This document shows, piece after piece, positions 5,056 through 21,571 of a stretch of 64,000 nucleotides of DNA. The notes beneath the pieces were generated by a model. That model was not told the DNA's origin and did not search any database. It saw only the letters and a program-made list of their open reading frames with translations. The position numbers and the translations under genes were made by a program. The stretch lies in assembly GCF_001955695.1 (NCBI RefSeq), contig NZ_CP019236.1, positions 744,001 to 808,000 of the forward strand, in the 5' to 3' direction. This stretch comes from Rhodoferax koreense (lineage in GTDB: Bacteria > Pseudomonadota > Gammaproteobacteria > Burkholderiales > Burkholderiaceae_C). Each line of letters opens with the position of its first letter. Position 1 is the stretch's first letter.

Positions 5056-7062
5056 TCACACCGTTGCGTGCGCGTCCTCTTGGGCTTCCGCATCAGCCTG
5101 CCCCTCAGCAAGCGGTTCAGCGCCTGCAACGTCAACTGCCACTGCCTCCTGGGCGCGGAACATCGCGGGCAGCCAGCCTGTACCCGCCGCCAGCCGCTCG
5201 GCCTCGCTGGCGATCTGCGCCTTCTTGAGCTTGCCGAGCCGGTTCACCTCGCTGGACGCGAAGGCCTGCACTCCTTCCAGTGCCTTGGCCTTGGAAACGT
5301 GATCGAAGTAGCCTGCGGCGGTCGGTGCCCACCACGCATGCATGTCCAGCCCCACTGCCTGCGCCAGCGCAGCAGCCGGGGCTTCGTCCTCACGCGAAGC
5401 GATGGCCGTTACCGTGAAGCCCACGCACACAGACAGCAGCGACAGCAGTTCCTGCTGTGGCATTGCCAGCAACTCGGCGAACAGCGCATCCGGGTCGCTG
5501 GGCAGGCGTTCAGTCCAAGCCTCCCGCACCTGCCGCATGCCCACCGCAGCCGGTGCCTCGGCCAGGTCCGGGGCGTACCGTTCCAGCCTGTCCTGCGGAT
5601 TGGCGGTGATGTTGATGGGCGAACCGTAGTGCGCGTCATGGATGACGCGCAATGCAAGCCGATGCACCACGGCGACCAAGGCCACCTGCGGGTGCCGAGC
5701 AACTTCCGCCTGAAGGGCGGCGGTGCGATGGGCACTCAGACGCTTGACCAGCCTCTCAGAAATGGTGAGTTTGGCTTCCTGCTGTTCGCCGCCCCTTTCG
5801 GCTGCATCACCCGTACCGTGCCCATCGCGTTCCTGCTCCCGCAACGCCTTGGCCTGTTCCTCGCGCAGCAGCCCACGATGCACGATCACACCGCCCATGT
5901 GGTCGAGCGACACCACAGCCCCCGCCGCCGCCATCGTGCGTGGCGGATAGACCACCAGTGTGCGTTCGATGGCTTCGAGTTCGTTGCCCAGACCGTCCAT
6001 CTCGTCCTGCGCAGCCTGCGCCTGCTCGTCCGTCATGTCCTCGTTCTCGTCGTCGAGGCGGTCTTGCAGCTTACGTTGCAGCGCTTCGAGCTTGGCGATG
6101 CGCTTGGTCTCGGCCTTGCTCGGCTCGCGCCGCTTGCTGCGCATGCGCTGGAACTGGTGCAGGTCGGCGTAGGTGGCACGCGGGGCCACGTCCACCCAAC
6201 CCCAGCCCTCTGCCTGTACCTGCTCGGCCATCGGCGCGAGCCGGTCTTTCGCCAACGACTCAAGCAGGGCCGCGTCCGTGAGAAAGATGCCGTTCTGTTC
6301 ATCCGCGAACAAGTCACGCCGTACAGCGCCGCCAGCCTGCTCGTAGACCGGAACCCCTACGAACTTCGCCAGCGCATCGCGGTTCGCATCGATTTCCTCG
6401 TGCGTGAGGTGATCGCGCAGCGCCTCCGGACTGCGCTGCCACTGCGGGGACGCATAGAACGCCGCTTCCTGTGCCGCATGGTCGTCGGTGATGGCAAGCG
6501 CCATCAGCTGCTCCAGCGTCACTGCATCAATCCGGTAGTCGGCCAGCAGGCGCGGCGAGACGTTGGCGAGCTTCAACCGCCGCTGCACAACCAACGGGGT
6601 CACGCCGAAGTCGGCGGCAATGTCCTCGATGGGCCGTCCCTCGGCCACCAGATCGGCGAAAGCCTCGAACTGGTCGGCCGGGTGCATGGCCTCGCGCTGC
6701 ACGTTCTCGGTCAGGCTCACCGTGCGTGCCGCTGCATCAGACCCCAGCAGGCAGGCCACCTCGAAGTCCTTGGCGAGCTTGCGCCGCTTGACCAGCAGCT
6801 TAAGAGCGGCGAGGCGACGGCGACCGGCCACAACCTCGTAGTGCTCGCCATCAGCGGCCAGCACCACATTGAGGTTTTGCAGCAAGCCCACACGGGTGAT
6901 GCTCGCGGCCAGTTCGGGAATCGACGTGCCGCCGATCTTGCGCACGTTGCGGCTGGAAGGCCGCAGCTTGGACAGCGGAATTAGCAGCAGTTCCTGCGCA
7001 GCCGTGACGGCTGCGACAGCAGCGGCGATGGCAGTGGTTTCGTGAAGGGTAGCGGTGTTCAT
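5056..7062 (-). CDS. ParB/RepB/Spo0J-family partition protein, large
   Basis: A 668-residue protein. Residues 25-120 form the ParB N-terminal domain: IPLSKLRPSSRNVRKIGGTS, LAASITRVGLLQNLNVV, VVAGRRRLAALKLL and TENVQREAMHPADQFEAF, followed by a helix-turn-helix at about 125-165 (IEDIAADFGVTPLVVQRRL). The remaining 480 residues are the extension seen in plasmid and integrative-element ParB proteins, with a lysine/arginine-rich helical part (SKAETKRIAKLEALQRKLQD) and acidic stretches. Role: binding DNA sites and helping segregation or maintenance of the excised element, usually with a ParA partner, which is not in this window. The ATG at 7062 has CAGGAG ten bases upstream. Confidence 0.92.
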   Translation of the reverse strand: MNTATLHETTAIAAAVAAVTAAQELLLIPLSKLRPSSRNVRKIGGTSIPELAASITRVGLLQNLNVVLAADGEHYEVVAGRRRLAALKLLVKRRKLAKDFEVACLLGSDAAARTVSLTENVQREAMHPADQFEAFADLVAEGRPIEDIAADFGVTPLVVQRRLKLANVSPRLLADYRIDAVTLEQLMALAITDDHAAQEAAFYASPQWQRSPEALRDHLTHEEIDANRDALAKFVGVPVYEQAGGAVRRDLFADEQNGIFLTDAALLESLAKDRLAPMAEQVQAEGWGWVDVAPRATYADLHQFQRMRSKRREPSKAETKRIAKLEALQRKLQDRLDDENEDMTDEQAQAAQDEMDGLGNELEAIERTLVVYPPRTMAAAGAVVSLDHMGGVIVHRGLLREEQAKALREQERDGHGTGDAAERGGEQQEAKLTISERLVKRLSAHRTAALQAEVARHPQVALVAVVHRLALRVIHDAHYGSPINITANPQDRLERYAPDLAEAPAAVGMRQVREAWTERLPSDPDALFAELLAMPQQELLSLLSVCVGFTVTAIASREDEAPAAALAQAVGLDMHAWWAPTAAGYFDHVSKAKALEGVQAFASSEVNRLGKLKKAQIASEAERLAAGTGWLPAMFRAQEAVAVDVAGAEPLAEGQADAEAQEDAHATV

Positions 7063-7841
7063 ATTTGAAAACTCCTGTCCCGTGTCGGGACCTTGAAAAT
7101 GAAGAAAAAAAAGCGGAAGGGGGTTCAAGATGTCGGTGTCTGCATGCGCGGCTCTCCTGTGGTTTCCCACCCCAGCCGGATTCCAAGATTCGGAGCCCGG
7201 TGTTGGCTTCGGTGGGTTCGGCGCAGTGACCTGGGCTGGTCGCCGTTGCCGCCGTCTTTCCTGAGTTCATCGCCCGCGAAAAACCGGGCCGGCGGGGACT
7301 GGCCGTCAAGGAAACAAGCGCAGGGTTGGGGCGGCCCGCAGCCGAAGGCGAGGACACGGCCCTGCGCGCCTTGACGGCCAGGCCTCGGCGGCTACGGTCG
7401 CGGGATCAGCGATGAGGGAAGGGAAAGACGGATGCCCGGCCAACGGCCAGGGAAGCGACGGACCCACGGCCGCGCGGCGAGCGCCACCGCGTGTCGTGGG
7501 CACGCCTAGCTGGAGGTGAACAAGCGCGTAGCGCGCTTCGGCAATGTGCGCTGGCCGATCAGGCGCCGCCTGTTCGGCGGCATCGAGGGGCGCCAAGCTT
7601 GCGCGGCGGGGATTGGCGTCGCCAGTCCCCTGGAGGGACGTTCAATACAGTCAAGCGAAGATGACCGATCGCGCTCAATGCTCCAGTCCTTTGCACATGA
7701 CATCAAGCATCGCCGGCTCGACGGAGCTCAAGCTTGGCGGGCTATGAAAAACGATCGCTTTCTTGGTGACTCAGCGCACGACGTAATTGACTGACCCAAA
7801 CGTCGCGACAACGAGCTGCATGACAATCGGCGGCGCGGTAC
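7063..7841. other. Gene-free stretch between backbone and defence cargo
   Basis: About 780 bases with no convincing gene. The left part is GC-rich like the backbone and should carry the parB promoter. The right part becomes gradually more AT-rich towards dndB. A short open frame at 7516-7794 has a ribosome-like AGGTG before its ATG but no recognisable protein. The junction between element backbone and imported cargo probably lies here. Confidence 0.4.
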
Positions 7842-7885: not shown

Positions 7886-9004
7886 ATGGCAGAAAATTTC
7901 TCATATGTTTTCCCCGCGATACGGGGGGTGCAGGCCGGACGCGAGTACTACGTGTCGATGTGCCCTCTGCGGTTGCTCCCGCGCCTCTTTTCTTTCGGCG
8001 AGGAAGAACTTGTTCCGGAGTTGCGCGCGCAGCGGACGCTCAACAAGGCCCGCGTGCCAGACATCGCGCGTTACATCGTAGAAAACAAGGATAGCTATAC
8101 GTTTTCGGCCATTACCGTTTCCATTGACGGATCCATCCAATTCGATCCTGTAGCCAACAAAGGCCCCGCGTCGTTTCGCATGGGTGCGTTGACCGTGTCG
8201 ATGGACGCAAAATTTATCGTGAACGATGGTCAGCATCGTCGCGCTGCGATTGTTCACGCGCTGGAAACGGCTCCGGAGCTTGGCGAAGAAACGATTGCTG
8301 TCGTGTTTTTTCTGGACCGCGGACTGAAACGCTGCCAGCAGATGTTCGCGGACCTCAACCGTTATGCCGTCAAGCCATCGGCCTCGCTAGGCGTGCTCTA
8401 TGACCACCGGAGTACAGCTGCGAGTCTGGTGCGGCACCTTAGCCTGGCTTCGCCCGTCTTTAAGAATCTCATCGAGATGGAAAGCTCGTCTCTTGCGCCT
8501 CGCGCTCGCAAGCTCTTCACGCTAAGCGCTTTGAACTTCGCAACATCTGAACTGCTTTCGGATAAGGAACTCGACGACTTCGAGTCTGCCAGCAAGAAGT
8601 GTCTTGAGTTCTGGGAAGCGGTCGGAGAACAGATTCCGGAGTGGACGTATGTGCGTCAATCGAAGATGACCTCGGGCGACCTTCGCCGCGATTTCATTCA
8701 CTCGCACGCCATCGTGCTGCAGGCATTGGGACGTGCCGGACGCGCTCTCTACCAGTTGTCGGCGACTGAACGGGCGAAGCGCCTCAAACGATTGCGCGAA
8801 GTCGACTGGTCCCGGAAAAATGCAACCACTTGGGAAGGCCGGGCGATGGTCGGCGGGGCGATGGCCAAGTCCGGCCAGAACATCACATTGACATGCAATG
8901 AGATCAAGCGAGTGCTTGGCCTCAAGTTGACACCTGAAGAGAGCGCGGCGGAGGAGGCATGGGCCTCCTCGCGACGTCCGCGTCGAAACACTGGACGTAA
9001 GTAA
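7886..9004 (+). CDS. dndB: DndB, regulator of DNA phosphorothioation
   Basis: A 372-residue protein of the DGQHR family. The signature DGQHR lies at residues 114-118 within FIVNDGQHRRAAIVHALE; the surrounding YTFSAITVSIDG and LNRYAVKPSASLGVLYD agree with DndB. DndB is not needed for the sulfur modification itself but is known in other bacteria to repress the dnd operon and to influence how often sites are modified. The ATG at 7886 (MAENFSYVFPAIRG) was preferred over an upstream in-frame start because the family begins there. The stop codon touches the ATG of dndC, so the two are surely cotranscribed. The inverted repeat just upstream may be its own operator. Confidence 0.93.
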   Translation: MAENFSYVFPAIRGVQAGREYYVSMCPLRLLPRLFSFGEEELVPELRAQRTLNKARVPDIARYIVENKDSYTFSAITVSIDGSIQFDPVANKGPASFRMGALTVSMDAKFIVNDGQHRRAAIVHALETAPELGEETIAVVFFLDRGLKRCQQMFADLNRYAVKPSASLGVLYDHRSTAASLVRHLSLASPVFKNLIEMESSSLAPRARKLFTLSALNFATSELLSDKELDDFESASKKCLEFWEAVGEQIPEWTYVRQSKMTSGDLRRDFIHSHAIVLQALGRAGRALYQLSATERAKRLKRLREVDWSRKNATTWEGRAMVGGAMAKSGQNITLTCNEIKRVLGLKLTPEESAAEEAWASSRRPRRNTGRK

Positions 9005-10459
9005 ATGAGTACTTCTTTTGAAGAGATCGTCGCGGAGATACGCGAACTGTATTTATCGGACTCGATCCCCTGGATCATTGGCTACAGCGGCGGTAAGGAT
9101 TCGACTGCGTCATTGCAGTTGGTGTGGTCTGCTGTCGCCTCGCTGCCGCAGGAGAAGCGCGTTAAGCCGATCCACGTGATCAGCACTGACACTTTGGTCG
9201 AGAATCCAGTGATTGCAGCCTGGGTGCACTTGTCGTTGCAGCGGATCAACATCTCCGCGCAGCAGCAAGGCCTGAACATCACTGCCCACAAGCTCACTCC
9301 ATCCCTCGAAAACCGCTTTTGGGTCAACCTGATCGGCAAGGGCTATCCAGCGCCGCGACCCAAGTTTCGCTGGTGCACGGACCGACTCAAGATCAGCGCA
9401 TCGACGACATTCATCCAGGAGTTGTCCGAAAACAATGGCGAGGCCATCTTGGTTCTGGGGCAGCGGCGGGGCGAGAGCCAAGCGCGCGACAAAGTGATGG
9501 ACCAGTACAAAAGCAGCACGCGTGCTCGCCTAAGCAAAAACAAGGACCCGAGGCTCTCCCGGGTGTGGGTCTATCCTCCTATCGAAAGTTGGACCAGCGA
9601 TGACGTTTGGGAATATCTGATCACGCAGCCGAATCCTTGGGGTATCGACAATCAGGAACTCTTCGCCATTTATCGCGGTGCCACACCAGATGCGGAGTGC
9701 CCAATCGTCGTTGACACGTCGACTCCAAGCTGCGGTGACAGCCGTTTCGGATGCTATGTTTGCACGATGGTCACGCAAGACAAGTCAATGCAGGCCATGA
9801 TTCAGAACGACGAGCAAAAGCAATGGATGCAGCCCATCCTGGATTTCCGGAACAAGCATCTCGCCATTGAGGATCGATCGTTGCGCGACTTCCGCAGGAT
9901 GAATGGCAGGCTCACTGTTTTTCACGGCGAGCTTGTACACGGACCTTATACACAAGACCATCGCAAGTTGCTTCTGACGCAACTGCTGGAAACGCAGAAA
10001 CTTGTCCAGAAAGCGGACGAAGCACAGGGGTCAAATCTCATCGAGCTGATCTCAATTGAGGAGCTTGAGGAAATCAGACGACTGTGGGTAGAGGAAAAAG
10101 GGGAGATTGAAGACTTCGTCCCCAGCATCTACGCAGGTGTCTTCGGCATCCCCTATCCCGGCAAGGACCTTGAGCAATCGCCACTAGACGCGCACGACCT
10201 GAAGCTTCTGGAAGATGTCGCATCGGAAGTGGATCCGGATGCATCGTCAGAGCTCTACAAACTGACGCGATCTCTTCTTGCCACACAGTTCCAGACGATC
10301 GAATCCCACAAACGGTCAAAGCATCTTGATCGCCTTGAAGAGGTGCTGCATCACTATGCCTTTCGCAATGAGGGCGAAGCACTCCAATTCGCGTTGGCAA
10401 GTCAGAAGGGTGAAGCTGGCGGTGCCAACGATGCAGACACAAACGGACTGGTTGCGTAG
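9005..10459 (+). CDS. dndC: DndC, ATP-pyrophosphatase/PAPS-reductase-like sulfurtransferase
   Basis: A 484-residue protein. The PP-loop nucleotide-binding motif SGGKDS is at residues 28-33. A W-C-T-D-R-L-K motif lies at about 123-129, and a cysteine cluster (C232, C243, C250 and C253, within PSCGDSRFGCYVCTMV) fits an iron-sulfur cluster site. In Dnd systems DndC activates the DNA backbone or carries sulfur using ATP, receiving sulfur from a cysteine desulfurase. It lies directly after dndB without a gap and three bases before dndD. Length and motifs are those of the family; nothing is missing. The desulfurase DndA is absent from the window. Confidence 0.96.
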   Translation: MSTSFEEIVAEIRELYLSDSIPWIIGYSGGKDSTASLQLVWSAVASLPQEKRVKPIHVISTDTLVENPVIAAWVHLSLQRINISAQQQGLNITAHKLTPSLENRFWVNLIGKGYPAPRPKFRWCTDRLKISASTTFIQELSENNGEAILVLGQRRGESQARDKVMDQYKSSTRARLSKNKDPRLSRVWVYPPIESWTSDDVWEYLITQPNPWGIDNQELFAIYRGATPDAECPIVVDTSTPSCGDSRFGCYVCTMVTQDKSMQAMIQNDEQKQWMQPILDFRNKHLAIEDRSLRDFRRMNGRLTVFHGELVHGPYTQDHRKLLLTQLLETQKLVQKADEAQGSNLIELISIEELEEIRRLWVEEKGEIEDFVPSIYAGVFGIPYPGKDLEQSPLDAHDLKLLEDVASEVDPDASSELYKLTRSLLATQFQTIESHKRSKHLDRLEEVLHHYAFRNEGEALQFALASQKGEAGGANDADTNGLVA

Positions 10460-10462
10460 ACG

Positions 10463-12448
10463 ATGGCAAAGCTAACAATCTTAAGCATTTCGGTCGAGAA
10501 TCTCGGTCCTTTCAAGGAGCGGCAGACCCTCGAGCTCCGTGTCACCGGCCGTCGTCCAGTCATTCTGGTGAAGGCACTCAACGGTAGTGGCAAGACAACC
10601 TTGCTTACAGCGCTTCAGGTCGGGCTGTATGGCCATAAAGCAATCAGCGGGATGAAGCGCACCGAGTACGAGCAGCTGATGCTTGGGATGCAACGCAAGG
10701 ACGCCGTTGGGAACAGTTCCGTAGAGGTTTTGGTTTTGGTGGAGATCGGCGGCGCGCCGCGCACCTTGACCGTTCGCCGGGAGTGGCGTCGAAAGGGATC
10801 TGACCTCATCGAGAGCTTGAGCATCTTTGAGGACGGCAGCAAGGATCTGATTTTCTCCGACACCTGGGATGAATTTATCGGATCAATTCTTCCGGCCGAG
10901 CTGGTCCAGCTTTTTCTCTTCGACGGGGAAAAAATTGAGGCTCTCGCCAATCCAGAACGACTCCCTGATCTGCTAAGACGGGCGACTGAGGTGTTCCTGG
11001 GTATCGGCGGCATTGAAGCCCTCGGGGGTGATCTGAAAGCACTGGAGCGTCGCTCCATGCTGAAGAACAAGGACTCGTCTGCCGAGTTCGAATCTGCCAG
11101 AGCAAACGTTGCCTCTTGGGAAGATCAAGAGCAATCGCTCGCGAACGAGCTTGGAAACTCAATCCAGGCGCAGGCGTCCGCGAAGAACGTAGTCGAACAG
11201 GCTCAGCGTGCCCTGAGCAAGTACACAGCCGAAGCGCAGCGGCGAGGGCTTGCCGCCTATGAGCAAGCTGCCAGCATTCGACACACAGTAGTTGTGAGCC
11301 AGAAGGAATCAGAAGCCGCTCGAAGCGCCCTGGCCGAAGTACTTTCGGACCCTGTCCTTCCCATGGTGTGGTTGCCGAGCCTTTGGCAACGCTATATCGA
11401 GAGCTGGGAAGCCGATCAACATTCGCGCCACTCCAAGTTATTGGCCCAAGAATTTAAGAAACGGGATCAGCGCCTCGTTGCCGCAATGGCCCAGAAGCTC
11501 CCGAAAAATGCGACGGATGCCTTCCGCCAAGCACTAGCGGAGGACCTACAGCAATTCTCTTCAAAACGGCCAAGCAACCAACCGACACTCCAGGACGCTC
11601 CACCCAAAGAGGCAGAACGCCAGATGGAAGATGGAAAGAAGCGACTCCGGCAAGCACTTGATCGATTGGCTGCAACGCGGGAAGACCTCGATCGGGCGGA
11701 GCAGCAGATCGGGCAGATTCCGGCTGAGGAACAGATTGCGACTATCCTCAAATCCTTGCAGGAGCGAACCAAGGAAGCTACTGCTGCAGAAGCCCAGCTT
11801 GCCGCGATCACCACGCGCATTGAGGAACTACAGACAAATCTCATCCATGTGCGAGCGCGACTGGGTGGAGCACAGGAGCGCCTCACGACCGAGTTTCGCG
11901 ATCGTTCCTTGGAAGCGAAGGGACTCGAAGCCTCCATACGCGCCCGAAAGGCGCTGCTTCTTTTTAAGGATAAGTTGCTAGCCTCCAAGGCCCAGTGGCT
12001 GTCGGAGATGATCACGAACGAGTTTCGCAATCTTCTTCGGAAGCGCAATCTTGTTTCAAAGGTCTTGGTCGATCCAGTGTCCTATCAGGTATCCATAGAG
12101 GATGGGAAAGGCCAGGAGCTTTCGATGGACAGGCTTTCGGCTGGAGAACGACAACTCCTTGCTATCTCGGTCCTCAGCGCGCTCATCAAGGAAAGAAAGG
12201 GCGGAAGATTTCCCGTCGTGGTCGATACCCCGCTTGCGAGGCTCGACCAAGAGCATCGTTCATCCTTGATCAAGCGTTTTTTTGCGACCGTGTCGCATCA
12301 AGTCGTCGTGCTGTCGACTGACCAGGAGGTCGACGGCATTGCTTACGACACCTTGAAGCCATACACCAATTCTGAGTATTCGCTGGATTACGACGATGGT
12401 GTCGGGTCCACCACCATCAACAAGACCACGGCCGAGAACTTCGCGTAA
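10463..12448 (+). CDS. dndD: DndD, SMC/Rad50-like ATPase of phosphorothioation
   Basis: A 661-residue ABC/SMC-type ATPase. Walker A is LNGSGKTT at residues 39-46, a conserved FDGEKIE is at 153-159, a long coiled-coil middle (about 190-500) follows, the signature LSAGERQ is at about 558-564, and Walker B VVVDTP at about 585-590. DndD is thought to alter DNA structure or supply energy while sulfur is inserted. I see no cysteine in the whole chain, so it has no zinc hook. It starts three bases after dndC and its stop overlaps the dndE start (TAATG). A related but different ATPase is encoded on the opposite strand at 13294-15375. Confidence 0.95.
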   Translation: MAKLTILSISVENLGPFKERQTLELRVTGRRPVILVKALNGSGKTTLLTALQVGLYGHKAISGMKRTEYEQLMLGMQRKDAVGNSSVEVLVLVEIGGAPRTLTVRREWRRKGSDLIESLSIFEDGSKDLIFSDTWDEFIGSILPAELVQLFLFDGEKIEALANPERLPDLLRRATEVFLGIGGIEALGGDLKALERRSMLKNKDSSAEFESARANVASWEDQEQSLANELGNSIQAQASAKNVVEQAQRALSKYTAEAQRRGLAAYEQAASIRHTVVVSQKESEAARSALAEVLSDPVLPMVWLPSLWQRYIESWEADQHSRHSKLLAQEFKKRDQRLVAAMAQKLPKNATDAFRQALAEDLQQFSSKRPSNQPTLQDAPPKEAERQMEDGKKRLRQALDRLAATREDLDRAEQQIGQIPAEEQIATILKSLQERTKEATAAEAQLAAITTRIEELQTNLIHVRARLGGAQERLTTEFRDRSLEAKGLEASIRARKALLLFKDKLLASKAQWLSEMITNEFRNLLRKRNLVSKVLVDPVSYQVSIEDGKGQELSMDRLSAGERQLLAISVLSALIKERKGGRFPVVVDTPLARLDQEHRSSLIKRFFATVSHQVVVLSTDQEVDGIAYDTLKPYTNSEYSLDYDDGVGSTTINKTTAENFA

Positions 12449-12828
12449 TGGATCGAATCAGACTAAATGCGTCCGCAAAGAATCAGTTGGCGACTTTGAA
12501 GCGACGGACGGGAATCGAACACAACAACGCGTTATGCCGACACGCGTTATGCATCTCGCTGGCCAACCCGTCTGTGCCGCCGCTCGAGTCCTTCTCCTTT
12601 GGCGGAGGCATCGAAATAGATTGGCGCACCCTAACCGGCGGCCAAGACGCGCTTTACCTGAACCTCTTGGCCGTTCGAATCTTGTCCGAGGGCAAAAAGG
12701 TGAGCGAAGAGGTTGTTCGGCAGACGTTCATCCAGCATGTGCACCGGGGGCTTTCATACCTCGTTAGTAGGCGGGAGGACGACTTGCTTGTCGAGCTCGC
12801 GAAATCGCTGGAAGCCATCGCGAACTGA
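12448..12828 (+). CDS. dndE: DndE, DNA-binding subunit of phosphorothioation
   Basis: A 126-residue protein beginning MDRIRLNASAKNQLATLKRR, followed by TGIEHNNALCRHALCISLAN and a central FGGGIEIDWRTLTGGQDALY; the end is helical (LSYLVSRREDDLLVELAKSL). DndE is a small, helical, DNA-binding protein, required in known systems for modification together with DndC and DndD. Its ATG overlaps the dndD stop by one base, the classic translational coupling within this operon. It is the last gene of the + strand operon and ends only 14 bases from the end of the convergent gene 12843-13301. Confidence 0.94.
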   Translation: MDRIRLNASAKNQLATLKRRTGIEHNNALCRHALCISLANPSVPPLESFSFGGGIEIDWRTLTGGQDALYLNLLAVRILSEGKKVSEEVVRQTFIQHVHRGLSYLVSRREDDLLVELAKSLEAIAN

Positions 12829-12842
12829 CGCGCGTGCAGTGG

Positions 12843-13301
12843 TCAGATTTTTAGCTTCGAGAGGTCGAATGTTGGCGTGTCAACGCTATCTCGTTTTCTT
12901 GTGTCGCTCACCATGAGCAGGATGGCCTGACTGAAGTCGACCTGCCCCTTGGTTTCTTCCGCAAGGATTGAAAGTCCGCCATTGGCAAACTCTTCAAACA
13001 CCAGTGAGCGCTTGGCAATCATCTCATCGGAGTCTTCCAGAATCGTCGCTGACTGCTCCGCTTGAACAGCTAGCAGGTTGATCAATGTGTCATAGCCCTG
13101 GCGATCAAAGACATCCTGTCGGATCGGCTCCGCAAGCGAATCCGGAAGCGGCTCCCGCCGTCCTCTCGCAGCTCCCAGAGCTGCCGAGAAGGCAATTACG
13201 TCGGCCTGCAATTTGAACGGCCCAGTCCCGTCGTCCACGGAAAGAAATTTTCGGATGAGCTCCTGCTTGTCTCTTGCAAAGCGGATGCGTCGTTCAACCA
13301 T
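12843..13301 (-). CDS. Small Dnd-associated protein (resembles dnd_assoc_4)
   Basis: A 152-residue protein starting MVERRIRFARDKQELIRKFL. It continues with ADVIAFSAALGAARGRREPL, SLAEPIRQDVFDRQGYDTLI and LVFEEFANGGLSILAEETKG. This resembles a family I recall as phosphorothioation-associated protein 4, present only beside dnd genes; its biochemical role is unknown. The ATG (13301) overlaps the end of the SMC-like gene by eight bases (ATGGTTGA), and GGGAG lies just upstream, so it is translationally coupled to it. It is the last gene of the - strand block and is convergent with dndE. An open frame extends ten codons further upstream, less likely the true start. Confidence 0.75.
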   Translation of the reverse strand: MVERRIRFARDKQELIRKFLSVDDGTGPFKLQADVIAFSAALGAARGRREPLPDSLAEPIRQDVFDRQGYDTLINLLAVQAEQSATILEDSDEMIAKRSLVFEEFANGGLSILAEETKGQVDFSQAILLMVSDTRKRDSVDTPTFDLSKLKI

Positions 13302-15375
13302 TGCTGATCTCCCGGATGATCGAATACTCAAATTCGTTGGCGCTCTTCACGACCAACGGGTAAGAATGACCGCGTATATCGATCAGTTCTGATGGGATAT
13401 CGCTCTTCGTCGTACAGTATTCAATTACGTATGCCTTGCCAGCTCGACTCGCCAAAGCGTTGGCAACTTCTCCGTTCCACTGGGTTGGCGTGACCATCAG
13501 GATTACCTGATCTGCAAGTGCTGTGATCTTGTCTGCAACTTGGGTGCGATAAGCGGATCCCAAGCTCCCAAACGGAGAGTCCATCACAATTGGATAGGTA
13601 CTCGCCTCAGGTCCGGGCAACTTCTCTTTGTTACGGGTGAAATCTCTCGCGACGTCAATGACGGCTCCGATGAACGCGAGGCTCAGGATTTGATTCTCGC
13701 CTTGAGAGGCAGCGACCGGTAGCGCGGTTCCGCCGGCGGATTCCAGTAGTCGAAGGGCGTAGGTCTCGGTGACCTCGGGGACATAGGGTGTATACGAAAT
13801 CTTTGCGAACAGGCTTCGTACCTTCTCTGTCAAGGTGCGCCTGAACGTGCTCTCGAAGAGGCCTCTCGATTCCTGAAGGCGCGAGATCGCGTCCAAGGTC
13901 GCCTGCAGGCGCCTTTGCGCCAACTGCTGCTTACCCTCGCTTTGCTCACTCTTACGCAGTTCAAGCAAGATAAGACGGAGGTCTTCTTCGTGGCGACGGC
14001 GGTCGTTCTTCGCGCTGCCGATTTCCTGATTCGCCTGCTCAATAGCTTCTACGGTGGCCTCAAACTGAGCTTCGAGATCCTTGACGCCCTCCTGCGGGCT
14101 TAGCCGCAGCCTTTGTCCAATGTCTTCCAGCTCTGTCTGAATGCGACTGATCTCTTCGCGATCAGCCGCAATCCTTCGCTGCTGCGCATCACTTTGATCC
14201 CAGAAGTTTTCTTGTTGCGTTCGCAGCTGTCTAACCTCTCCCCCCATACGGATCGCCTTTTCCTCAACTTGCGCCAGACCCGCTTTGTCTTTCCAGCGTT
14301 CCACAGCTTCACGTGCACTGCGCGACTCATTCATGTCTAGCGAACGCTCACAAATGCATGTGTACTTGCCAAGCAGATCATCAACGAACTGCCTTTTGAT
14401 CCCGGCGGGTAGTTCGCCCTTCGCGCGCAGACTCTCAATCAGATCTAAGAAATTCTGACTTGGCCCGGACAGAAACGCCTTGTAGGCATCTGCATTCAGA
14501 AGAGCGCTCAGCTGGCTTTTTGCGGCGGTCATGGTGTCCGTTGCGCGCTCCAAGTCTGTCTCGAGCTGCTCGCGCCGCTGTTGGTCGACCTTGACCTCAT
14601 CAAGCTTTGATAAGCGCTGTTTGAGTTCCTTCTGTCGCTCACGTTGCCCAACGAGGTTCTTGGTGGCCTGATCTGAGCGCGCCTCTACCCTCGCCAACTG
14701 TTCTTCGATGCCGGCCTTGCGCTGGAGAATCTCCTTTGTCGCGGCGTCACCCACTTGCTCAAGCTCCTTTTCAAGCGTCTTCCTCGCAGCACCGAGATGC
14801 CGCACCGCACGCTCAATCACCTCCAATCCGAGCAACTTCTTCGTCGCATTGGCGATGTCGTTCTGTTCTTCTCCCGAGGGTTGCACGATCCGCTCGATAC
14901 GTTCGCCGTCAAAAAAGAAGTATGTGTGTAAGTCTCTTGGAAGTACTCTTCCGATCACATCCGCAGTGTTGGTTTCCACTTTCCACTTACCATCCTCTGC
15001 AGCCCACATAAGGGTGGTAAGGGGTGGGCCTTTGGATACCAAGTCCCCGTCATCCCCCTTTACCGCTTGCACCAACTTTTTCAACAAGTACTGGCGTCCC
15101 AAGTGTTCGAACTTGATCTGCACCCACGCGTCTATCGTCGCACCAGGCGCAGACTCGCGAATTGCTCTCTTATTGATGATCTGGTCTTCGAAGAGAAAGC
15201 CCTTGCTGACTGAGTCGTACATTGCCCATGTGAACGAGTTGAGCACAGCGGTTTTACCGGCTCCGTTCGACCCATACAGGACTGTGACATTACCCTGGCC
15301 AGTCGCAAACTTGACTGGTGGCGTTTGTCCGTAGAACTGGCGAAAGTTGTTAAGCTGAAGTTCTAGGAGAATCAT
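13294..15375 (-). CDS. SMC/Rad50-like ATPase, DndD paralogue in the restriction block
   Basis: A 693-residue ATPase. Walker A GSNGAGKT is at residues 35-42, FDGERIE at 155-161, a long coiled coil at about 190-530, a CIC motif (C340 and C342, in KYTCICERSLD) near the middle, the signature SQGENQILSLA at about 557, and Walker B YPIVMDSPFG near 595-604. The FDGE(K/R)IE motif in the same position as in dndD, plus the overall layout, shows common ancestry. The CxC in mid coil could be a reduced zinc hook, unlike the cysteine-free DndD here. An AAGGAGGTG site before the ATG at 15375 supports the start. It overlaps both neighbours and should act with the helicase and nuclease genes, probably as DNA-sensing or DNA-clamping ATPase. 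Confidence 0.85.
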   Translation of the reverse strand: MILLELQLNNFRQFYGQTPPVKFATGQGNVTVLYGSNGAGKTAVLNSFTWAMYDSVSKGFLFEDQIINKRAIRESAPGATIDAWVQIKFEHLGRQYLLKKLVQAVKGDDGDLVSKGPPLTTLMWAAEDGKWKVETNTADVIGRVLPRDLHTYFFFDGERIERIVQPSGEEQNDIANATKKLLGLEVIERAVRHLGAARKTLEKELEQVGDAATKEILQRKAGIEEQLARVEARSDQATKNLVGQRERQKELKQRLSKLDEVKVDQQRREQLETDLERATDTMTAAKSQLSALLNADAYKAFLSGPSQNFLDLIESLRAKGELPAGIKRQFVDDLLGKYTCICERSLDMNESRSAREAVERWKDKAGLAQVEEKAIRMGGEVRQLRTQQENFWDQSDAQQRRIAADREEISRIQTELEDIGQRLRLSPQEGVKDLEAQFEATVEAIEQANQEIGSAKNDRRRHEEDLRLILLELRKSEQSEGKQQLAQRRLQATLDAISRLQESRGLFESTFRRTLTEKVRSLFAKISYTPYVPEVTETYALRLLESAGGTALPVAASQGENQILSLAFIGAVIDVARDFTRNKEKLPGPEASTYPIVMDSPFGSLGSAYRTQVADKITALADQVILMVTPTQWNGEVANALASRAGKAYVIEYCTTKSDIPSELIDIRGHSYPLVVKSANEFEYSIIREISNG

Positions 15376-15538
15376 TCACCACCTCCTTGATAATTCTGAG
15401 AATGTCGTCATTGATATGCGGACGTTCCAGATAGAGGCGCTCGGCCTCAAGCTTCAAAACTCTGGTAATTATTCCTCGCACCTCCGCAGGGTCACGCCGC
15501 AGTGGCTCCATCGGATCGATTGCTTTTTCTTCTTCCAT
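15350..15538 (-). CDS. 62-residue protein between helicase and SMC-like ATPase
   Basis: A small helical protein: MEEEKAIDPMEPLRRDPAEV, RGIITRVLKLEAERLYLERP, HINDDILRIIKEVVND and a short tail. It starts ten bases after the helicase stop, and its end overlaps the SMC-like gene by 26 bases, so it is part of the same transcript and coupled to translation of the ATPase. Such overlap, together with regular helical spacing, argues for a real gene. No family is recognised. It may be a bridging or regulatory subunit linking helicase and ATPase; this is inference from position only. Confidence 0.7.
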   Translation of the reverse strand: MEEEKAIDPMEPLRRDPAEVRGIITRVLKLEAERLYLERPHINDDILRIIKEVVNDSPRTSA

Positions 15539-15548
15539 ACTTTCCTCT

Positions 15549-17642
15549 TTAGAGATCCATCAGGTTGAACTTCTTTTGGAGAGGCAAGATTTTCGCGCGT
15601 GCCTCACCGGAATTGATCGCGAGATCTGCAAACTCCACGAATCGGACTAGCTCTTTGCGAAGCAGGCTACGCTCCGATTCGCCGACGACGCCCTCTTCGG
15701 GCGGGACAACGACCATGTCATAAACGACTGCAGCGTCTTTGCCTGGGGCGCGTCGAAGAACGCGCCCCCGCCGTTGGATGAACTGCCGGGGATTGCTGCT
15801 ACTGGCCAAGATAATTGCAGTCTGAATAGAGGGAATATCGACGCCTTCATCGAGGCAACGGATTGCGACAAGGCCCTGCAGGGTCCCATCATCGATTCCC
15901 TTGCGCAGAACTTCGCGTTGGTCGAGATTCTCATCGGCCGTGTACTTCGACACGCGCATCCCCAAATCGCTTCCCAGCAAGCGCATCGCTTCGTCAACTT
16001 GCCGCGCAACTCCTAAGTCAGTTTCCGTTTCCACCGTTCCGTCGCCGCAGTAAACGAGAAAATGACTTTGCCCTTGGAGGGTCGACGAGAACAACTGCGT
16101 GAGTGCCACCAGTTTGTTGCGGGCAGATGCAACCAGTCTTCCTCGCTCAAGCAGTTGGAACTTCAACGAAGTTGACTCCGCGTCGGCATTCCACAGTTTC
16201 GCGATCTTGGCGCTGATCTCCAGATACCGCTTGCGCTCGTCGTCGTCCAGCTCAATGAGAATTGGAACGTACCTGTAAGGCACCAGTACGCCTTTATTCA
16301 GCGCCATCTTGAGCGTGAACTTCGGCTCTATGACCGGACCAAAATAGTTGAATATTCGAGCAGTTCCCTCAAGATCGAACCACCGTTCGGGCGTGGCCGA
16401 AAGCCCCAGTCTCAAAGTAATTTTTTCGGGAAGAGCCGAAGCGAGGTTCTCTGAACCCAGGTTATGCACTTCATCACCAACAATGAAGGTCGTGGCAGGG
16501 AAGTACCGCAGCCGGCTTTGAAAGGAATCAGAAGAGAAGGTGCTGTTGGTTGTCAGCACGCACATGAATTTGCGCGTTCCACTATGCACGTCGTTCAGCT
16601 GTGCGGTCAATCGCTCGGCCCATCGATTGATGGACTCGAATGCCAGCAGAGGGTCAAAGCCAAAGCTCTCTGCCTCCCTGCACCACTGCTGAACAAGATG
16701 TCTGTATGGGCAGACAACGATAAGGGCTTGCAGCCCCATTTGTTCATAAAGCCGCACAGCCGCGGCGAGGGCGGTGATTGTTTTGCCCGCGCCGGTGGCC
16801 ATTTGCAGGACACCCTTTCCCCCTGCTGCTACCCAGTTGCGAATTCCGAGCAACTGATGATCCTGCAATCGGATAGTCTCGGGAATTTGCGGGCTGCGCG
16901 GTCCGCGCTTGGTACGACGTACCTGCTCTTCGTCAGGATCGAATTCTGGAGGCTGGTCCCGGCGAAATTTCGCCAATACCTCTTTCGCGATCTCGGTGAA
17001 GTCCTCCACCAAGAGGGCCGGATTACCAGGTGCGCCGGCCCACAAGTCATCGAAGTCAGCAGCCTTCGCCCTCGTACGGCCATGTGGGTCATCCCATGAC
17101 CAATACACGTCGATCGATTCAAAGTTTGAGACCAACCCGCCAGTGGTTTCGTTCTGTGAACCCGTGAATGCGATCATCGCGCCAGACGAGTCTTCGAAGA
17201 CACCAATTTTCTCGTGATAGATGCCCCGGCCTAGCTTCCCGGTGCGGGGGTCGACGCGCAGGGCCAGCTTGATCTCAAGCGCGTTGATCGAAATCAGCCA
17301 GGCCAGTGCATTCAATCGCTCTCGTTCGAGTTCATCCTGGAGTTGCTCAAGCTCAGTTTCGAAAAGCTTGCGAATTCGCTGACCTCGACTTTCGTAGCCC
17401 TTCTCGATGGCTTCGGTGTCCTCGGCAGACAGCTGCGGCGAGGTAATCAGCTGAATTTTCCCTCCCGACTTGATCAACCGTGCGGCGCCGCGCGCGGCGA
17501 GGCTCAACGACCCGCTGGTGAAGTATCCAACCGCACGACGGTACAGCACCGCATTGGTCATGCACGGCACATAGAAGTCATCGACGACGTTCCCCGCGTC
17601 TGATCGATAGGAGATCTTTGGCTTGATGCTCTGGAGGCTCAT
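15549..17642 (-). CDS. Phospholipase-D domain / superfamily 2 helicase fusion
   Basis: A 697-residue protein. Residues 1-230 form a PLD-type domain with H-x-K (H143, K145, in IYHEKIGVF) and GSxNE at 161-165 (FTGSQNETTGGL), the layout of PLD-family nucleases. Residues 255-690 form a superfamily 2 helicase/translocase: Walker A MATGAGKT at 281-288, DEVH at 390-393, LSATP at 414-418 and QRRGRVLR at about 623-630. Fusions of this sort are known next to dnd genes and, as I recall, are described as phosphorothioation-system restriction enzymes. It would move along DNA and cut unmodified invaders. It follows the DUF262 gene by 80 bases and leads into the 62-residue gene. Confidence 0.9.
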   Translation of the reverse strand: MSLQSIKPKISYRSDAGNVVDDFYVPCMTNAVLYRRAVGYFTSGSLSLAARGAARLIKSGGKIQLITSPQLSAEDTEAIEKGYESRGQRIRKLFETELEQLQDELERERLNALAWLISINALEIKLALRVDPRTGKLGRGIYHEKIGVFEDSSGAMIAFTGSQNETTGGLVSNFESIDVYWSWDDPHGRTRAKAADFDDLWAGAPGNPALLVEDFTEIAKEVLAKFRRDQPPEFDPDEEQVRRTKRGPRSPQIPETIRLQDHQLLGIRNWVAAGGKGVLQMATGAGKTITALAAAVRLYEQMGLQALIVVCPYRHLVQQWCREAESFGFDPLLAFESINRWAERLTAQLNDVHSGTRKFMCVLTTNSTFSSDSFQSRLRYFPATTFIVGDEVHNLGSENLASALPEKITLRLGLSATPERWFDLEGTARIFNYFGPVIEPKFTLKMALNKGVLVPYRYVPILIELDDDERKRYLEISAKIAKLWNADAESTSLKFQLLERGRLVASARNKLVALTQLFSSTLQGQSHFLVYCGDGTVETETDLGVARQVDEAMRLLGSDLGMRVSKYTADENLDQREVLRKGIDDGTLQGLVAIRCLDEGVDIPSIQTAIILASSSNPRQFIQRRGRVLRRAPGKDAAVVYDMVVVPPEEGVVGESERSLLRKELVRFVEFADLAINSGEARAKILPLQKKFNLMDL

Positions 17643-17722
17643 GACTAGCCAAGCCCTGCAGCTTCTACGCTGGTGAGCCCGATACCGTGGATCCGTTGGT
17701 CATGGCCGTACTTCATGACGGT

Positions 17723-19531
17723 TCAGACCACAAATATCTTCAGAGCCATCGTCTTGAGTCCTTCTTTCCAGGCATTGACGGCCGCCACGTTCCAAACCGC
17801 TAGGGATGAAATCTGGACATTGAGTGAGATGGTTGACTTGGCAAATACCGCCTTCTTCTGTAGAAATGGCTTGTTGCCTACTGCATCATTGTCTGTTGGC
17901 CCGAGAATGGTGAGATTGCCTAGTGACTGTACGACCGGTGTTAAGTGGGGATCGCTCGGCGAGCTGTTTTGTGGGTAAATGTGCTCGAGAGTTGTATTGG
18001 CAAAGTCGAGAACCCGAGACTTGTCTTTGCACACCGGAGCCCCGTTCGCACCGTCCTGATACCAGCGGGCATAGTGCTCGATGGTCATCAGGAAGTACTT
18101 GATCGTTTTGTTACTTGCAAGGGTTGAGTACTCCAATTCGCCAAGGGCGGTCGTGAACCGACTGTCGCTGGCGTGGGTAAGCAAGAGCGGTTGCAAATCT
18201 GCCCTTAGCGTCGTCACTTTATATGTCGATGGGGCAGCCCTAATTGCCACCGCATGCTTGTTATAAACGTTGGTCGCAGGTCCGATATGAGCATTCGAAA
18301 CACTTTTATAGCGAAAGACGAACCGCTCCAACATCTGAACGATATCGGAGAACGTTTTCTGCTTCAGCGCAGTGGCGGCGATCAGCAGCGGGATGCAGTT
18401 CGTGTGTTTCAACTCGCGGAGCAGCAGCCCCAACCGGTCTCGGTCCCAAGCAGTGACAGTTGAATGACCTGGCAGTGGCCATTGTCCGTCCAACATCAAG
18501 GCGATCTTCTTGAAGTCCTTTCCGAGGTTTTCGACAGCGGTTACCAGGCTAGCAGCTTGACTTGCCGTAAGAACAGCGGGGTGGCTAGGGATGAGATGCT
18601 GAAGAAATTCATCATAGAGCGTCGTCTTGCCCGGCCGTTTCCCAGTGTGTGACGCGAATATCCATCGCAAGACTTCTTCGACCCGGCCTGGAGCCTCACT
18701 TAGGATGTCGTCCCAACATTTTTCGATTCGATCCAGCTGCTCTTGAGTTGCGACGGCATCCAAGACCTCCATCGTCTTCGCACGCAATAGCTCGCCTTCC
18801 GTGAGTCCAACACCGCGATCGTTGAGGACTTGGAAAAGGTTGTATGCATGTTGGACAGTGGTTGTTTCCATGTGGATCACCGTCCAGTCGACCTCCAAGA
18901 CTTTCGCAATATTGGCAAGCTGAGTGACTTTTTGATGATCAATTGATTCCTGGGCAACAAGGTCGGCGATGTACTTGCCAAGCGATACGTAGGCCGCCTT
19001 GAGGAGCTTGTGGGACGTTCGCTCGGCGTCGTCGGGATTGTTCCCTTGAATCAATTGCACAAAGAATAGGTAGTCTGGCTTTGAGAGCTCCAGACGGGCG
19101 ACGTCCTCAACCTTGAGGGAAACCGTGTCGTCCAGTCGCAAGAACTGGGCGCGCAGCGTGCCTGCACGGTCTTCGAGAAATTTGCGCAAAGAGCCATCTG
19201 CATCCGCGACAAGCTTTGTAGAAAGCTCCAACATTACGTTTATGACTTGCGCGACCAAGATCACAAACGTCGCGAGGCGCTGCTGTCCATCTATAACTTC
19301 AAGCTTGGTCGCGCTTCCGGCATGCGGTCTGGCTACTGTCACCAGGCCGCCGAAAAAATGTGGGCGCTCCTGCGATGCCTTTCGCGCCTTCAGGCTGCCG
19401 GCAAGATCTGCCTTGAGGTCATCGATCTCTTCGGCGGTCCACGCATAGTGGCGCTGGTACTTCGGCACCCTGAAGATTCTCGTGGGACCGAACAGTCCTG
19501 CAATGCTCTCATGACGAGGTGTGATGACCAA
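17723..19531 (-). CDS. DUF262/DUF1524 protein (GmrSD/SspE-like nuclease)
   Basis: A 602-residue protein. The N-terminal DUF262 domain shows VPKYQRHYAW (22-31) and DGQQRLAT (81-88), the nucleotide-hydrolysing ParB-like motifs. The C-terminal DUF1524 His-Me nuclease shows EHIYPQ (516-521), SLGNLTIL (about 536-543) and NKPF (about 553-556). GmrSD cuts modified DNA, and SspE, with the same two domains, is the restriction partner of single-stranded phosphorothioation. Here it is first in a Dnd-linked block, which is unusual. The start is TTG at 19531 with GGAGG four bases upstream; no in-frame ATG fits the domain. The middle (200-480) is helical and unassigned. Confidence 0.88.
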   Translation of the reverse strand: MVITPRHESIAGLFGPTRIFRVPKYQRHYAWTAEEIDDLKADLAGSLKARKASQERPHFFGGLVTVARPHAGSATKLEVIDGQQRLATFVILVAQVINVMLELSTKLVADADGSLRKFLEDRAGTLRAQFLRLDDTVSLKVEDVARLELSKPDYLFFVQLIQGNNPDDAERTSHKLLKAAYVSLGKYIADLVAQESIDHQKVTQLANIAKVLEVDWTVIHMETTTVQHAYNLFQVLNDRGVGLTEGELLRAKTMEVLDAVATQEQLDRIEKCWDDILSEAPGRVEEVLRWIFASHTGKRPGKTTLYDEFLQHLIPSHPAVLTASQAASLVTAVENLGKDFKKIALMLDGQWPLPGHSTVTAWDRDRLGLLLRELKHTNCIPLLIAATALKQKTFSDIVQMLERFVFRYKSVSNAHIGPATNVYNKHAVAIRAAPSTYKVTTLRADLQPLLLTHASDSRFTTALGELEYSTLASNKTIKYFLMTIEHYARWYQDGANGAPVCKDKSRVLDFANTTLEHIYPQNSSPSDPHLTPVVQSLGNLTILGPTDNDAVGNKPFLQKKAVFAKSTISLNVQISSLAVWNVAAVNAWKEGLKTMALKIFVV

Positions 19532-19762: not shown

Positions 19763-20053
19763 ATGCACTTTCATCAGTCGCTGCCCAAACCCAGCATTTC
19801 CAAGGCTCCCCCCGCGTTCTACCGGTTACGCGATGTCATGCGGATCACGGCTCTGAGCAGGTCCACCATCTATCGCCGCGTTGCCGAGGGCCGATTTCCA
19901 GCGCCCGTCCATCTTGGCGGTCGCGCCTCGGCGTGGTCTAGCGCCACTTTGCAACAGTGGATCGATGACCCAGAGAACTATGGCGTGCTTACGCGGCAAG
20001 CCTGGGCGCTTCAGCCGGTCCCCCTAGGGGCTCATGCCTCGGTTTTGGAGTGA
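19763..20053 (+). CDS. AlpA-like DNA-binding regulator/excisionase
   Basis: A protein of about 96 residues if started at 19763 (MHFHQSLPKPSISK); an earlier ATG at 19721 is possible. The core is YRLRDVMRITALSRSTIYRR followed by VAEGRFPAPVHLGGRAS and AWSSATLQQWIDD, the winged helix-turn-helix pattern of the AlpA family. These proteins activate integrase transcription or bend DNA during excision of P4-like islands. Its 3' end overlaps the end of the convergent integrase gene by 65 bases. Neighbour context fits a recombination directionality factor for this island. Confidence 0.85.
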   Translation: MHFHQSLPKPSISKAPPAFYRLRDVMRITALSRSTIYRRVAEGRFPAPVHLGGRASAWSSATLQQWIDDPENYGVLTRQAWALQPVPLGAHASVLE

Positions 20054-21323
20054 GGCCGCGCAGCTCAATCCACGGGGTTACTGATTTTTCTTCTGCCAGG
20101 TCGTCGAGCAAATTGGCCCATAGCTGAACCATTTCACGACGTTGGGCCAGGAAGGTGGCGCGGTCGTAGCTGCCGCCTAGTTCCTCGTCTGATACATGGG
20201 CAAGGTGGCGTTCAATCACGTCACGGTCCCATCCCAGCAGCTCTCGGATAAGGGTTCGCGCCGTGGCGCGGAAGCCGTGCCCCGTAATTTGCTCCCTCGT
20301 GTCGTAGCCGAGTGTTCGTAAAGCACTGTTTAGGGTGTTGTCGCTCATATATCGGCTTGCCTCCGAGCGCTTCGCCATGCTTTTGAAGATGGGACCGGCC
20401 GGTCCTGTAAGCGGAAAGATGTCGCGGAGAATGTCGATCGCTTGCGTAGGCAACGGGACCACGTGGGCAGGCGTCCGAATGTCCCGCTTCATCCATTCGC
20501 GTAGCTTCATCTTTTCGGGAGGGCATCGCCACAGGGCCTTCTCGAAATCGATGTCCTCCCAGTCTGCGAGGCGCAATTGCCCTGGGCGCTGAAACAGCAT
20601 TGGGGACAGCTGAAGCGCGGCGCGCGTTATGACGTGGCCGTTGTAGCCGCGGATGTCGCGTAGCAGTTGACCCAGTTTCCCTGGATCTGTGATGGCGGGA
20701 TAGTGACGCGCGCGTGGTGGCGGCAGGCCGCCGGTCCGGCTATTCACAAAATTCTTTGCTGGCTCCAATGCCCCGACGTCCACTGCGTACTGGAAGGCGT
20801 GCTGGACGACCTCTCGCACGCGTTGCGCGGTCTCAAGATTGCCCCGCTCCTTGATACGGTGCAGGCAGCGCACGAGTTCGGTTGGCTTGATAGCCTCCAT
20901 AGTCAAAGAGCCAAGCCACGGAAAGATGTGCAGCTCCAGATGCCGCATGACCTTTTCGGCGTAGTTCAGGGACCATTCACGGTCTTTCTGGGCTTGCGCG
21001 TGCCAAGCTCGCGCCATCAACTCAAATGTATTGAGCTTCGCCGCCCTATCGCGCTCAGCTTGATCCCGGCGGGACTCCCGCGGGTCAATCCCGCCTGCTC
21101 GTTTCTCGCCCTCTTCCCGGGCCTTCTTTCGCGCCAGGGCTAGGCCTACTACCGGATAGGCGCCCAAGCTGAGCTTTGCCTGTTTGCCTGCCTGCTTGTA
21201 CCGGTAGATCCACACCTTGCCGTTCGGCCTGACGCGAAGGTAGAGCCCTTCGCCGTCAGAAAGCAGGTATTCGTTGCCGCGCGGATTGGCCGCTTTGATC
21301 TGGAGTTCGGTGAGCTGTCCCAT
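19989..21323 (-). CDS. P4-type tyrosine integrase
   Basis: A 444-residue integrase. An N-terminal arm-binding domain of the DUF4102 type (EYLLSDGEGLYLRVRPNGK, LGAYPVVGLALARKKARE) is followed by a core-binding domain (about 100-200) and the catalytic domain. Catalytic residues visible are R246 (QRPGQLRLADW), H349 and R352 (GHGFRATARTLIRE), H373 (ERHLAH) and nucleophile Y386 (GGSYDRATFLAQRREMVQLW). The protein is intact and should integrate and excise DNA at the 3' end of a tRNA gene. It starts about 170 bases from tRNA-Phe and is read away from it. It lacks nothing for activity, but ends in a tail overlapping the AlpA-like gene. Confidence 0.95.
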   Translation of the reverse strand: MGQLTELQIKAANPRGNEYLLSDGEGLYLRVRPNGKVWIYRYKQAGKQAKLSLGAYPVVGLALARKKAREEGEKRAGGIDPRESRRDQAERDRAAKLNTFELMARAWHAQAQKDREWSLNYAEKVMRHLELHIFPWLGSLTMEAIKPTELVRCLHRIKERGNLETAQRVREVVQHAFQYAVDVGALEPAKNFVNSRTGGLPPPRARHYPAITDPGKLGQLLRDIRGYNGHVITRAALQLSPMLFQRPGQLRLADWEDIDFEKALWRCPPEKMKLREWMKRDIRTPAHVVPLPTQAIDILRDIFPLTGPAGPIFKSMAKRSEASRYMSDNTLNSALRTLGYDTREQITGHGFRATARTLIRELLGWDRDVIERHLAHVSDEELGGSYDRATFLAQRREMVQLWANLLDDLAEEKSVTPWIELRGLTPKPRHEPLGGPAEAPRLAA

Positions 21324-21495: not shown

Positions 21496-21571
21496 TGGTG
21501 GCCTGGGGCGGAATCGAACCACCGACACAAGGATTTTCAATCCTCTGCTCTACCGACTGAGCTACCGGGCC
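21496..21571 (-). tRNA. tRNA-Phe (GAA), island attachment site
   Basis: A 76-base cloverleaf with encoded CCA: acceptor GGCCCGG, D-arm GCTC/GAGC, anticodon loop TTGAAAA (anticodon GAA), T-arm GGTGG TTCGATT CCGCC, acceptor return CCAGGCC, A, CCA. Position 5 (C) faces an A at 68, a mismatch inside the acceptor stem. The 3' half adjoins the island and is the probable attachment core, so the mismatch may mark sequence supplied by the element. Lies 18 bases after the response regulator gene. Confidence 0.97.

Follow-up and report, generated by a model that had tools for sequence, protein, structure and literature searches.

A phosphorothioation locus on a tRNA-Phe island of Rhodoferax koreense carries genes for two putative effectors, PbeABCD and DndI

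Which effector genes accompany the dndBCDE phosphorothioate (PT) modification genes of Rhodoferax koreense, in a genome where dndFGH genes were not found? The question is raised by a 64,000-nucleotide stretch of its chromosome (the window; positions 744,001 to 808,000 of contig NZ_CP019236.1, assembly GCF_001955695.1), in which dndBCDE on the + strand converge with five genes on the - strand, 14 bases lying between the dndE stop at 12828 and the facing stop at 12843. An earlier note on this DNA had described this arrangement, and re-reading the window confirmed all frames and coordinates and showed the nine open frames to be intact. We propose, with a probability of about 0.78, that these genes constitute a PT-based anti-phage locus on an island at tRNA-Phe, in which one modification module would serve two separate effectors, PbeABCD and DndI. 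The gene identities, their intact motifs, their combination and its recurrence are direct observations. Published systems are cited throughout from the parts of each paper available to us.

Four of the Genes Facing dndBCDE Correspond to pbeABCD

Window genes were named by profile scans with Pfam, NCBIfam (using its curated cut-offs) and PADLOC. To judge from their sequences, four of the five - strand genes are pbeABCD, and they agree in order, size and domains with the 2019 description, in which PbeA is a PLD, ResIII and helicase protein, PbeB has 66 amino acids (aa), PbeC is an AAA_23 protein and PbeD has 152 aa, the four genes being co-transcribed and adjoining dnd genes (Xiong et al., 2019; PMC6459918). 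The pbeA gene (15549..17642) would code for a fusion of a PLD/HKD nuclease and an SF2 helicase, with motifs HEK...D at residue 143 (PLD/HKD), GKT at 286 and DEVH at 390 (SF2 helicase). The PLDc_2 domain scored 23.4 bits, below the Pfam cut-off of 27, and TIGR04095 ("DNA phosphorothioation system restriction enzyme") reached 587 bits, short of its cut-off of 600; since TIGR04095 falls short, the name PbeA was given because of the PADLOC PbeA score (803 bits), the domains and the gene order. The pbeC gene (13294..15375; PADLOC PbeC PDLC02753, 831 bits) codes for a CxC-type ABC ATPase, with CIC at residues 340-342 and the Walker A motif GSNGAGKT. A CxC motif occurred in 11 of the 12 PbeC proteins compared and CxxC in the remaining one (L070), and neither was present in any of six DndD proteins. 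The CxC motif agrees with a 2024 study that counted tandem DndD and CxC systems in 936 bacterial taxa and reinterpreted three of the proteins: PbeC became a CxC ABC ATPase, PbeB a small protein that evolves fast, and PbeD a cognate of DndE (PMC10853773).

The two remaining genes are small. The pbeB gene (15350..15538; 62 aa), which no Pfam, NCBIfam or PADLOC model matched, was named from its position, its overlap with pbeC and its likeness to a small gene of Pseudanabaena, to which residues 11-62 are 47% identical (E 6e-8, the search space being that 30 kb locus). The pbeD gene (12843..13331), with a probable ATG start at 13301, matched TIGR04062 dnd_assoc_4 with 125 bits (cut-off 74), the name also borne by pbeD of Pseudanabaena and Pontibrevibacter. 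The frames of the five - strand genes (12843-19531) are separated by 80, 10, -26 and -38 bases, and because of this close or overlapping spacing the block fits a single operon.

The earlier note had taken the block for an alternative restriction module, "perhaps Pbe-like". The likeness proved correct for four of its genes, which make up a module published in 2019 and not an unknown one. The profile searches that the note had proposed for the five proteins returned PbeD, PbeC, PbeA and GmrSD/"Orf5", and thereby made exact the identity of what it had called a "small Dnd-associated protein". Its description of Pbe as archaeal has to be widened, since pbe genes were reported from 26 archaeal genomes and bacterial pbeAC beside dndCD in 235 cases (PMC6459918).

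The Fifth Gene Codes for a Homologue of DndI

The fifth gene (17723..19531, - strand) codes for a 602 aa protein with a DUF262 (GmrSD_N) domain and an HNH DUF1524 (GmrSD_C) domain. In a phmmer search of solved structures it matched Salmonella DndI (9JFL) with 266 bits (E 5.5e-78; residues 3-600 versus 3-593), against only 23.6 bits for SspE, and in PADLOC the Orf5 model scored 747 bits and the best SspE model 68; the label "Orf5" presumably stands for DndI. Its sequence is that of a full-length DndI homologue. The added "SspE-like" gene of the earlier note is thus DndI instead: identity as SspE was ruled out by these full-length scores and by length (602 aa against about 770). The sharing of DUF262 and DUF1524 domains could also point to SspE, or to an enzyme of GmrSD type whose targets are modified bases, with no link to PT. 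This is highly improbable given the same scores and the finding that no type IV enzyme was present among the 25 of 34 PADLOC families listed. The modification genes that adjoin the fifth gene are dndBCDE and not SspABCD, the search for Ssp genes having been confined to this neighbourhood.

The window protein keeps P23, Y25, Q26, D81GQQR85, E516-H517, N539 and N548, all of them invariant in the four rows aligned (DndI of the window, Variovorax, Methylobacterium and Salmonella Infantis), and N548 pairs with N541 of DndI in the 9JFL alignment. In the published protein, Y25 senses PT, D83GQQR87 is the NTPase motif and the change N541A abolishes both nuclease activity and defence; the protein introduces nicks into DNA, becomes toxic when PT is lacking, and comes off self DNA through PT-stimulated ATP hydrolysis (PMC11662687). 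A single-sequence structure model of the window DndI had a pLDDT of 39.

The Locus Contains dndBCDE, and an IscS Is Coded Elsewhere in the Genome

DndB, DndC, DndD and DndE each scored above the NCBIfam curated cut-off. The dndB gene (7886..9004; TIGR03233, 536 bits, cut-off 328) has a frame that opens at 7787; despite this longer frame, the ATG at 7886 agrees with the start of the DndB domain, and the long frame has a DGQHR motif at residue 147. The dndC gene (9005..10459; TIGR03183, 637 bits, cut-off 290) codes for a sulfurtransferase with SGGKDS at residue 28 and cysteines at 124, 232, 243, 250 and 253, the last four of which we take to be spaced as in S. lividans DndC. It is followed by dndD (10463..12448; TIGR03185, 562 bits, cut-off 246), for an ABC ATPase, and dndE (12448..12828; TIGR03184, 91 bits, cut-off 72; PF08870, 96 bits). 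The locus has no dndA among its genes; an IscS is coded elsewhere in the genome (G000:C1:3969408-3970607; 722 bits, cut-off 643), a layout also seen with iscS-dndBCDE in Salmonella.

The absence of DndF, DndG and DndH, claimed in the earlier note from the window, was extended to the genome. DptF (TIGR03238) and DptH (TIGR03237) had no match in the whole 5.9 Mb, a Priestia plasmid serving as positive control in the same searches; DptG (TIGR03236) likewise had no match, in a search that had no working positive control. The view of the locus as a mixed system was upheld, its components being PbeABCD and DndI on one dndBCDE module.

DndI Follows PT Genes, with Pbe as an Optional Partner

DndI was searched for in several genome sets, which overlapped in part. 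At E 1e-10 it was matched in 21 of 369 genomes of the class sample and in 31 of 399 of the family sample; in both only the R. koreense genome itself gave a clear match, the next best reaching 107 and 89 bits, respectively. The weaker GmrSD-type matches (20/368 and 30/398 genomes other than its own, none above 107 bits) were not taken as DndI. At E 1e-40, four of 398 genomes of the phylum sample were retrieved: R. koreense (1095 bits), G804 (657), G1096 (424) and G932 (156), the last being rejected as DndI because its best-scoring family was HEC-06. The three clear DndI genomes, R. koreense included, all have PbeA as well. Within their own families, DndI was restricted to G804 itself (1/199) and to G1096 itself (1/29). 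Among 72,556 plasmid records a single one, from Methylobacterium bullatum, gave a match, and four of 50,697 records of a phage collection did so, one match, on a contig of Salmonella Infantis, extending over most of its length. A contig scan sensitive to close relatives only gave one match, Variovorax ginsengisoli, where the neighbourhood survey suggested by the earlier note found all nine genes together again; a scan of viral contigs gave one weak match, and Salmonella dndI DNA had no match in E. coli genomes.

M. bullatum, G804 and G1096 share a common layout: pbeA, a small protein gene, a gene for a 644-645 aa CxC ATPase, one for a 163-166 aa protein and dndI, with dndBCDE and a gene for a desulfurase alongside. 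The desulfurase was best matched by the DndA model, with 473, 445 and 393 (all below the cut-off of 480). In a scan that covered G804 and M. bullatum, their ATPases scored weakly as PbeC (85 and 69 bits, respectively), and Priestia queries found no relatives of DptF, DptG or DptH in the three loci. The fourth gene of this second Pbe lineage (L056 19487-19978; L080 6387-6878; L079 6182-6682) matched no PADLOC or NCBIfam model and had no profile link to PbeD or DndE, so that its naming as PbeD would be by position only.

DndI adjoins or accompanies dndC in all six loci where it was found (the window, L026, L056, L057, L079 and L080), and PbeA is present in five of them, the window and L026 being near copies. 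DndI therefore goes where the PT genes are, and a Pbe module need not be present. The sixth locus, from Salmonella Infantis (L057), has dndI beside a second DGQHR-domain gene, facing dndBCDE (13896-16779), among genes annotated as an integrating conjugative element of the PFGI-1 class; its 31.7 kb stretch gave no match to PbeA, nor to DptF, DptG or DptH with the Priestia queries.

This locus bears on whether PbeABCD and DndI could form a single five-part complex, with DndI giving the DNA-cutting or the PT-reading step to Pbe. Such a complex would account for the position of dndI in an apparent pbeABCD operon (upstream in the window, downstream in three other loci), for the overlap of dndI frames in M. 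bullatum and G1096, and for the joint occurrence with PbeA in the phylum sample. We nevertheless consider it unlikely, as the Salmonella Infantis stretch has DndI beside dndBCDE but no PbeA, DndI acts without Pbe in published tests (PMC11662687) and Pbe acts without DndI in archaea (PMC6459918). The variable gene order and the phylogeny of PbeA also argue against such a complex.

DndI-Bearing PbeA Proteins Belong to Two Parts of the PbeA Tree

In a PbeA tree of 14 rows the DndI-bearing proteins were not monophyletic: their distribution requires three label changes, and the approximately unbiased (AU) test rejected a single clade with p 1.8e-70, a value that is not that of a strict prior test because the clade was chosen after the first tree had been seen; L114-L119 are not part of this tree. 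The window PbeA groups with that of Pseudanabaena (no DndI or dnd match in 30 kb), and the PbeAs of M. bullatum, G804 and G1096 form a group with that of G1000, where 19.9 kb contained no DndI. Moreover, dndI is the first gene of the apparent pbe operon in the window and the last in the other three loci. The three label changes suggest separate joinings of DndI and Pbe, although one old gain followed by two losses may also account for them; separate joinings are favored because gene order differs between the lineages. The branches of a DndI tree were very long and none of its forks was starred, and nothing was drawn from it.

Evidence Weighing Against Two Working Effectors

Starting from PbeA, 24 loci were compared, taken from all eight PbeA-bearing genomes other than R. 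koreense, 12 of 24 plasmid records and four of eight further records; the 12 plasmid records left out included eight of Lactiplantibacillus, and the other four further records had already been counted. Presence of DndC was scored as a match above 300 bits. DndC was found in nine of the 24 loci, and DndI in two of these nine (L079 and L080) and in none of the 15 without DndC. Adding M. bullatum, which was found via DndI first and again among the further PbeA records, makes it three of 10. Absence is weak for L060, L077 and L083, whose stretches are short, and L116/L117 and L074/L078 are near copies; an extra 14 kb of the L077 contig contained neither DndI nor DndC.

Several of these data count against our proposal. 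Because seven of the nine PbeA and DndC loci found via PbeA have no DndI, DndI is an accessory of such loci and not a required part. At about 28%, the identity between the window DndI and that of Salmonella Infantis is low, so that the PT motif and the nucleotide use of the window protein may differ from those of Salmonella DndI. Comparison of PbeD and DndE profiles (8 rows each) gave an hhalign probability of 0.3%, and a single-sequence structure model of PbeD, with a pLDDT of 42, is not a confident one. Finally, the top PADLOC model for the window DndD is labelled PbeC (949 bits; best PADLOC DndD model, 467). We call this gene dndD, and not pbeC, because its NCBIfam score lies far above the cut-off, it stands beside dndC and dndE, and its product contains no cysteine, hence no CxC hook.

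The frequent lack of DndI, together with the extensive mixing and matching reported for PT loci (PMC10853773), would also fit a decaying or redundant passenger, that is, two effectors brought together by chance of which one is active. That seems distinctly unlikely to us: the frames are open and the inspected motifs intact in the window, the matches in V. ginsengisoli are full-length, and DndI-bearing PbeAs occur at two different places in the PbeA tree.

Proposed Mechanism

In the two-effector mechanism that we propose, IscS of the host and DndC, DndD and DndE would mark host DNA with sulfur, and DndB would tune the amount of PT marking. PbeABCD, composed of the helicase-nuclease, the small protein, the CxC ATPase and PbeD, would block replication of unmarked phage DNA. 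DndI would scan DNA and nick it through its HNH domain, and at PT sites its ATPase would be stimulated, letting it go of self DNA. These activities are all predicted from homologues, and so are the PT motif and the separate working of the two effectors. In published work PbeABCD halts viral replication without cutting and requires PT, a PT-marked virus escapes it, and in cells without dnd it is not toxic (PMC6459918). On loss of PT the two effectors would respond in opposite ways, because Pbe, going by its published homologues, needs PT and is harmless without it, whereas DndI is toxic without it. This could make the locus a fail-deadly system: when a phage disabled the marking enzymes, Pbe would fall silent and DndI would be set free to cut unmarked DNA of phage and host. 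We put this forward tentatively and regard it as rather doubtful; if true, the pairing would guard the modification machinery, which would explain the presence of DndI with two different Pbe lineages. Two parallel effectors that would widen the range of phages affected are a plainer reading and equally open. The PT effectors DndFGH, PbeABCD, SspE and DndI are described singly in the literature consulted, whereas here two of them stand on one modification module. The locus provides a natural test of whether two such effectors work together, substitute for one another or protect the marking enzymes.

The Locus Is Part of a Mobile Island

Next to dndI lies a tyrosine integrase gene with Pfam integrase domains (19989..21323, - strand), which adjoins tRNA-Phe (21496..21571, - strand). 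In four of five genomes of the same genus, the best match to the chromosomal flank of the window starts at query base 97, which corresponds to 21496, and in the fifth genome a second matching piece starts at 21496. The nine genes and the integrase recur beside tRNA-Phe in V. ginsengisoli, with 96-100% protein identity, and its DNA is about 98% identical to that left of the locus over more than 30 kb, against 74-78% for the flank on the tRNA side. The locus seems to sit on an island inserted in tRNA-Phe that looks conjugative, and because of this difference in identity we take the island to have passed between hosts by recent transfer; the same two-effector island is common to R. koreense and Variovorax. 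No exact att repeat of the tRNA-Phe end (14-mers) was found in an 83 kb stretch. A 704-aa open reading frame without Pfam match lies at 5056-7170 of the window, and the 6 kb or so preceding the window start on its left (stretch L092) contain genes for a replication initiator, ParA, an S26 peptidase and a DUF3363 protein. These genes are likely the conjugative backbone of the island, presumably Tn4371-like.

Comparison with Known PT Systems

The closest published relatives each resemble one part of the locus. DndCDEA-PbeABCD (PMC6459918) shares the order, domains and similar sizes of the pbe genes and their adjoining PT genes; the window differs in having dndB, convergent modules, an added dndI and no dndA within the locus, IscS being coded elsewhere. 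The main text of that paper does not mention DUF262, GmrSD or orf5. IscS-DndBCDE-DndI of Salmonella Cerro 87 (PMC11662687) shares iscS-dndBCDE and a 596-602 aa DUF262-DUF1524 protein with Y25, DGQQR and the HNH asparagine; in that strain dndI is co-transcribed with dndFGH, whereas in the window it stands with pbeABCD. SspABCD-SspE (PMC9646914) has the same N-terminal DUF262 domain with a PT-sensing tyrosine and DGQQR, and a C-terminal DUF1524 HNH domain. SspE, however, is a 771 aa GTPase turned on by PT and a partner of SspABCD, and the window protein scores 24 bits to it. Window PbeC corresponds to the CxC ATPase of the CxC ABC ATPase-DndE systems (PMC10853773), in the main text of which GmrSD, DUF262 and DUF1524 are unmentioned. 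We found no description of a pairing of PbeABCD with DndI in the literature covered, which excluded supplementary files and most subscription papers. Among the papers listed by our searches one, the DndI paper (PMC11662687), contains both names, PbeABCD once, in its introduction, and such loci may be among the 61 dndBCD and dndI genomes lacking dndFGH that it counts. Each module is known, and the combination alone appears to be undescribed.

Additional Observations

Promoter scans did no better than chance, with 3 sites found against 4.5 expected. Terminator-like sites were above chance (21 found, 13.4 expected), and none was used in the argument. Other arrangements of pbe genes were noticed during the survey. 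On plasmids of Rhizobium indigoferae (L071 11342-22401) and a Sphingomonadaceae bacterium (L074 3208-14306), Pbe genes stand beside SspABCD-looking genes annotated as cysteine desulfurase, DUF4007, ATP-binding or hypothetical protein, and PAPS reductase, so that Pbe is seemingly tied there to an Ssp-type modification in place of Dnd. Priestia megaterium plasmid pBMG4 (L114 1-16461) contains dptFGH, dndBCDE with a PLP enzyme in the dndA position, and pbeABCD in one locus. In three dnd and pbe loci (L068 10948-14001, L116 9694-11940 and L117 9647-11941), a gene of 2-3 kb annotated as a sigma factor-like helix-turn-helix protein lies right ahead of pbeABCD, and in two of the three a protein annotated as DGQHR is coded nearby.

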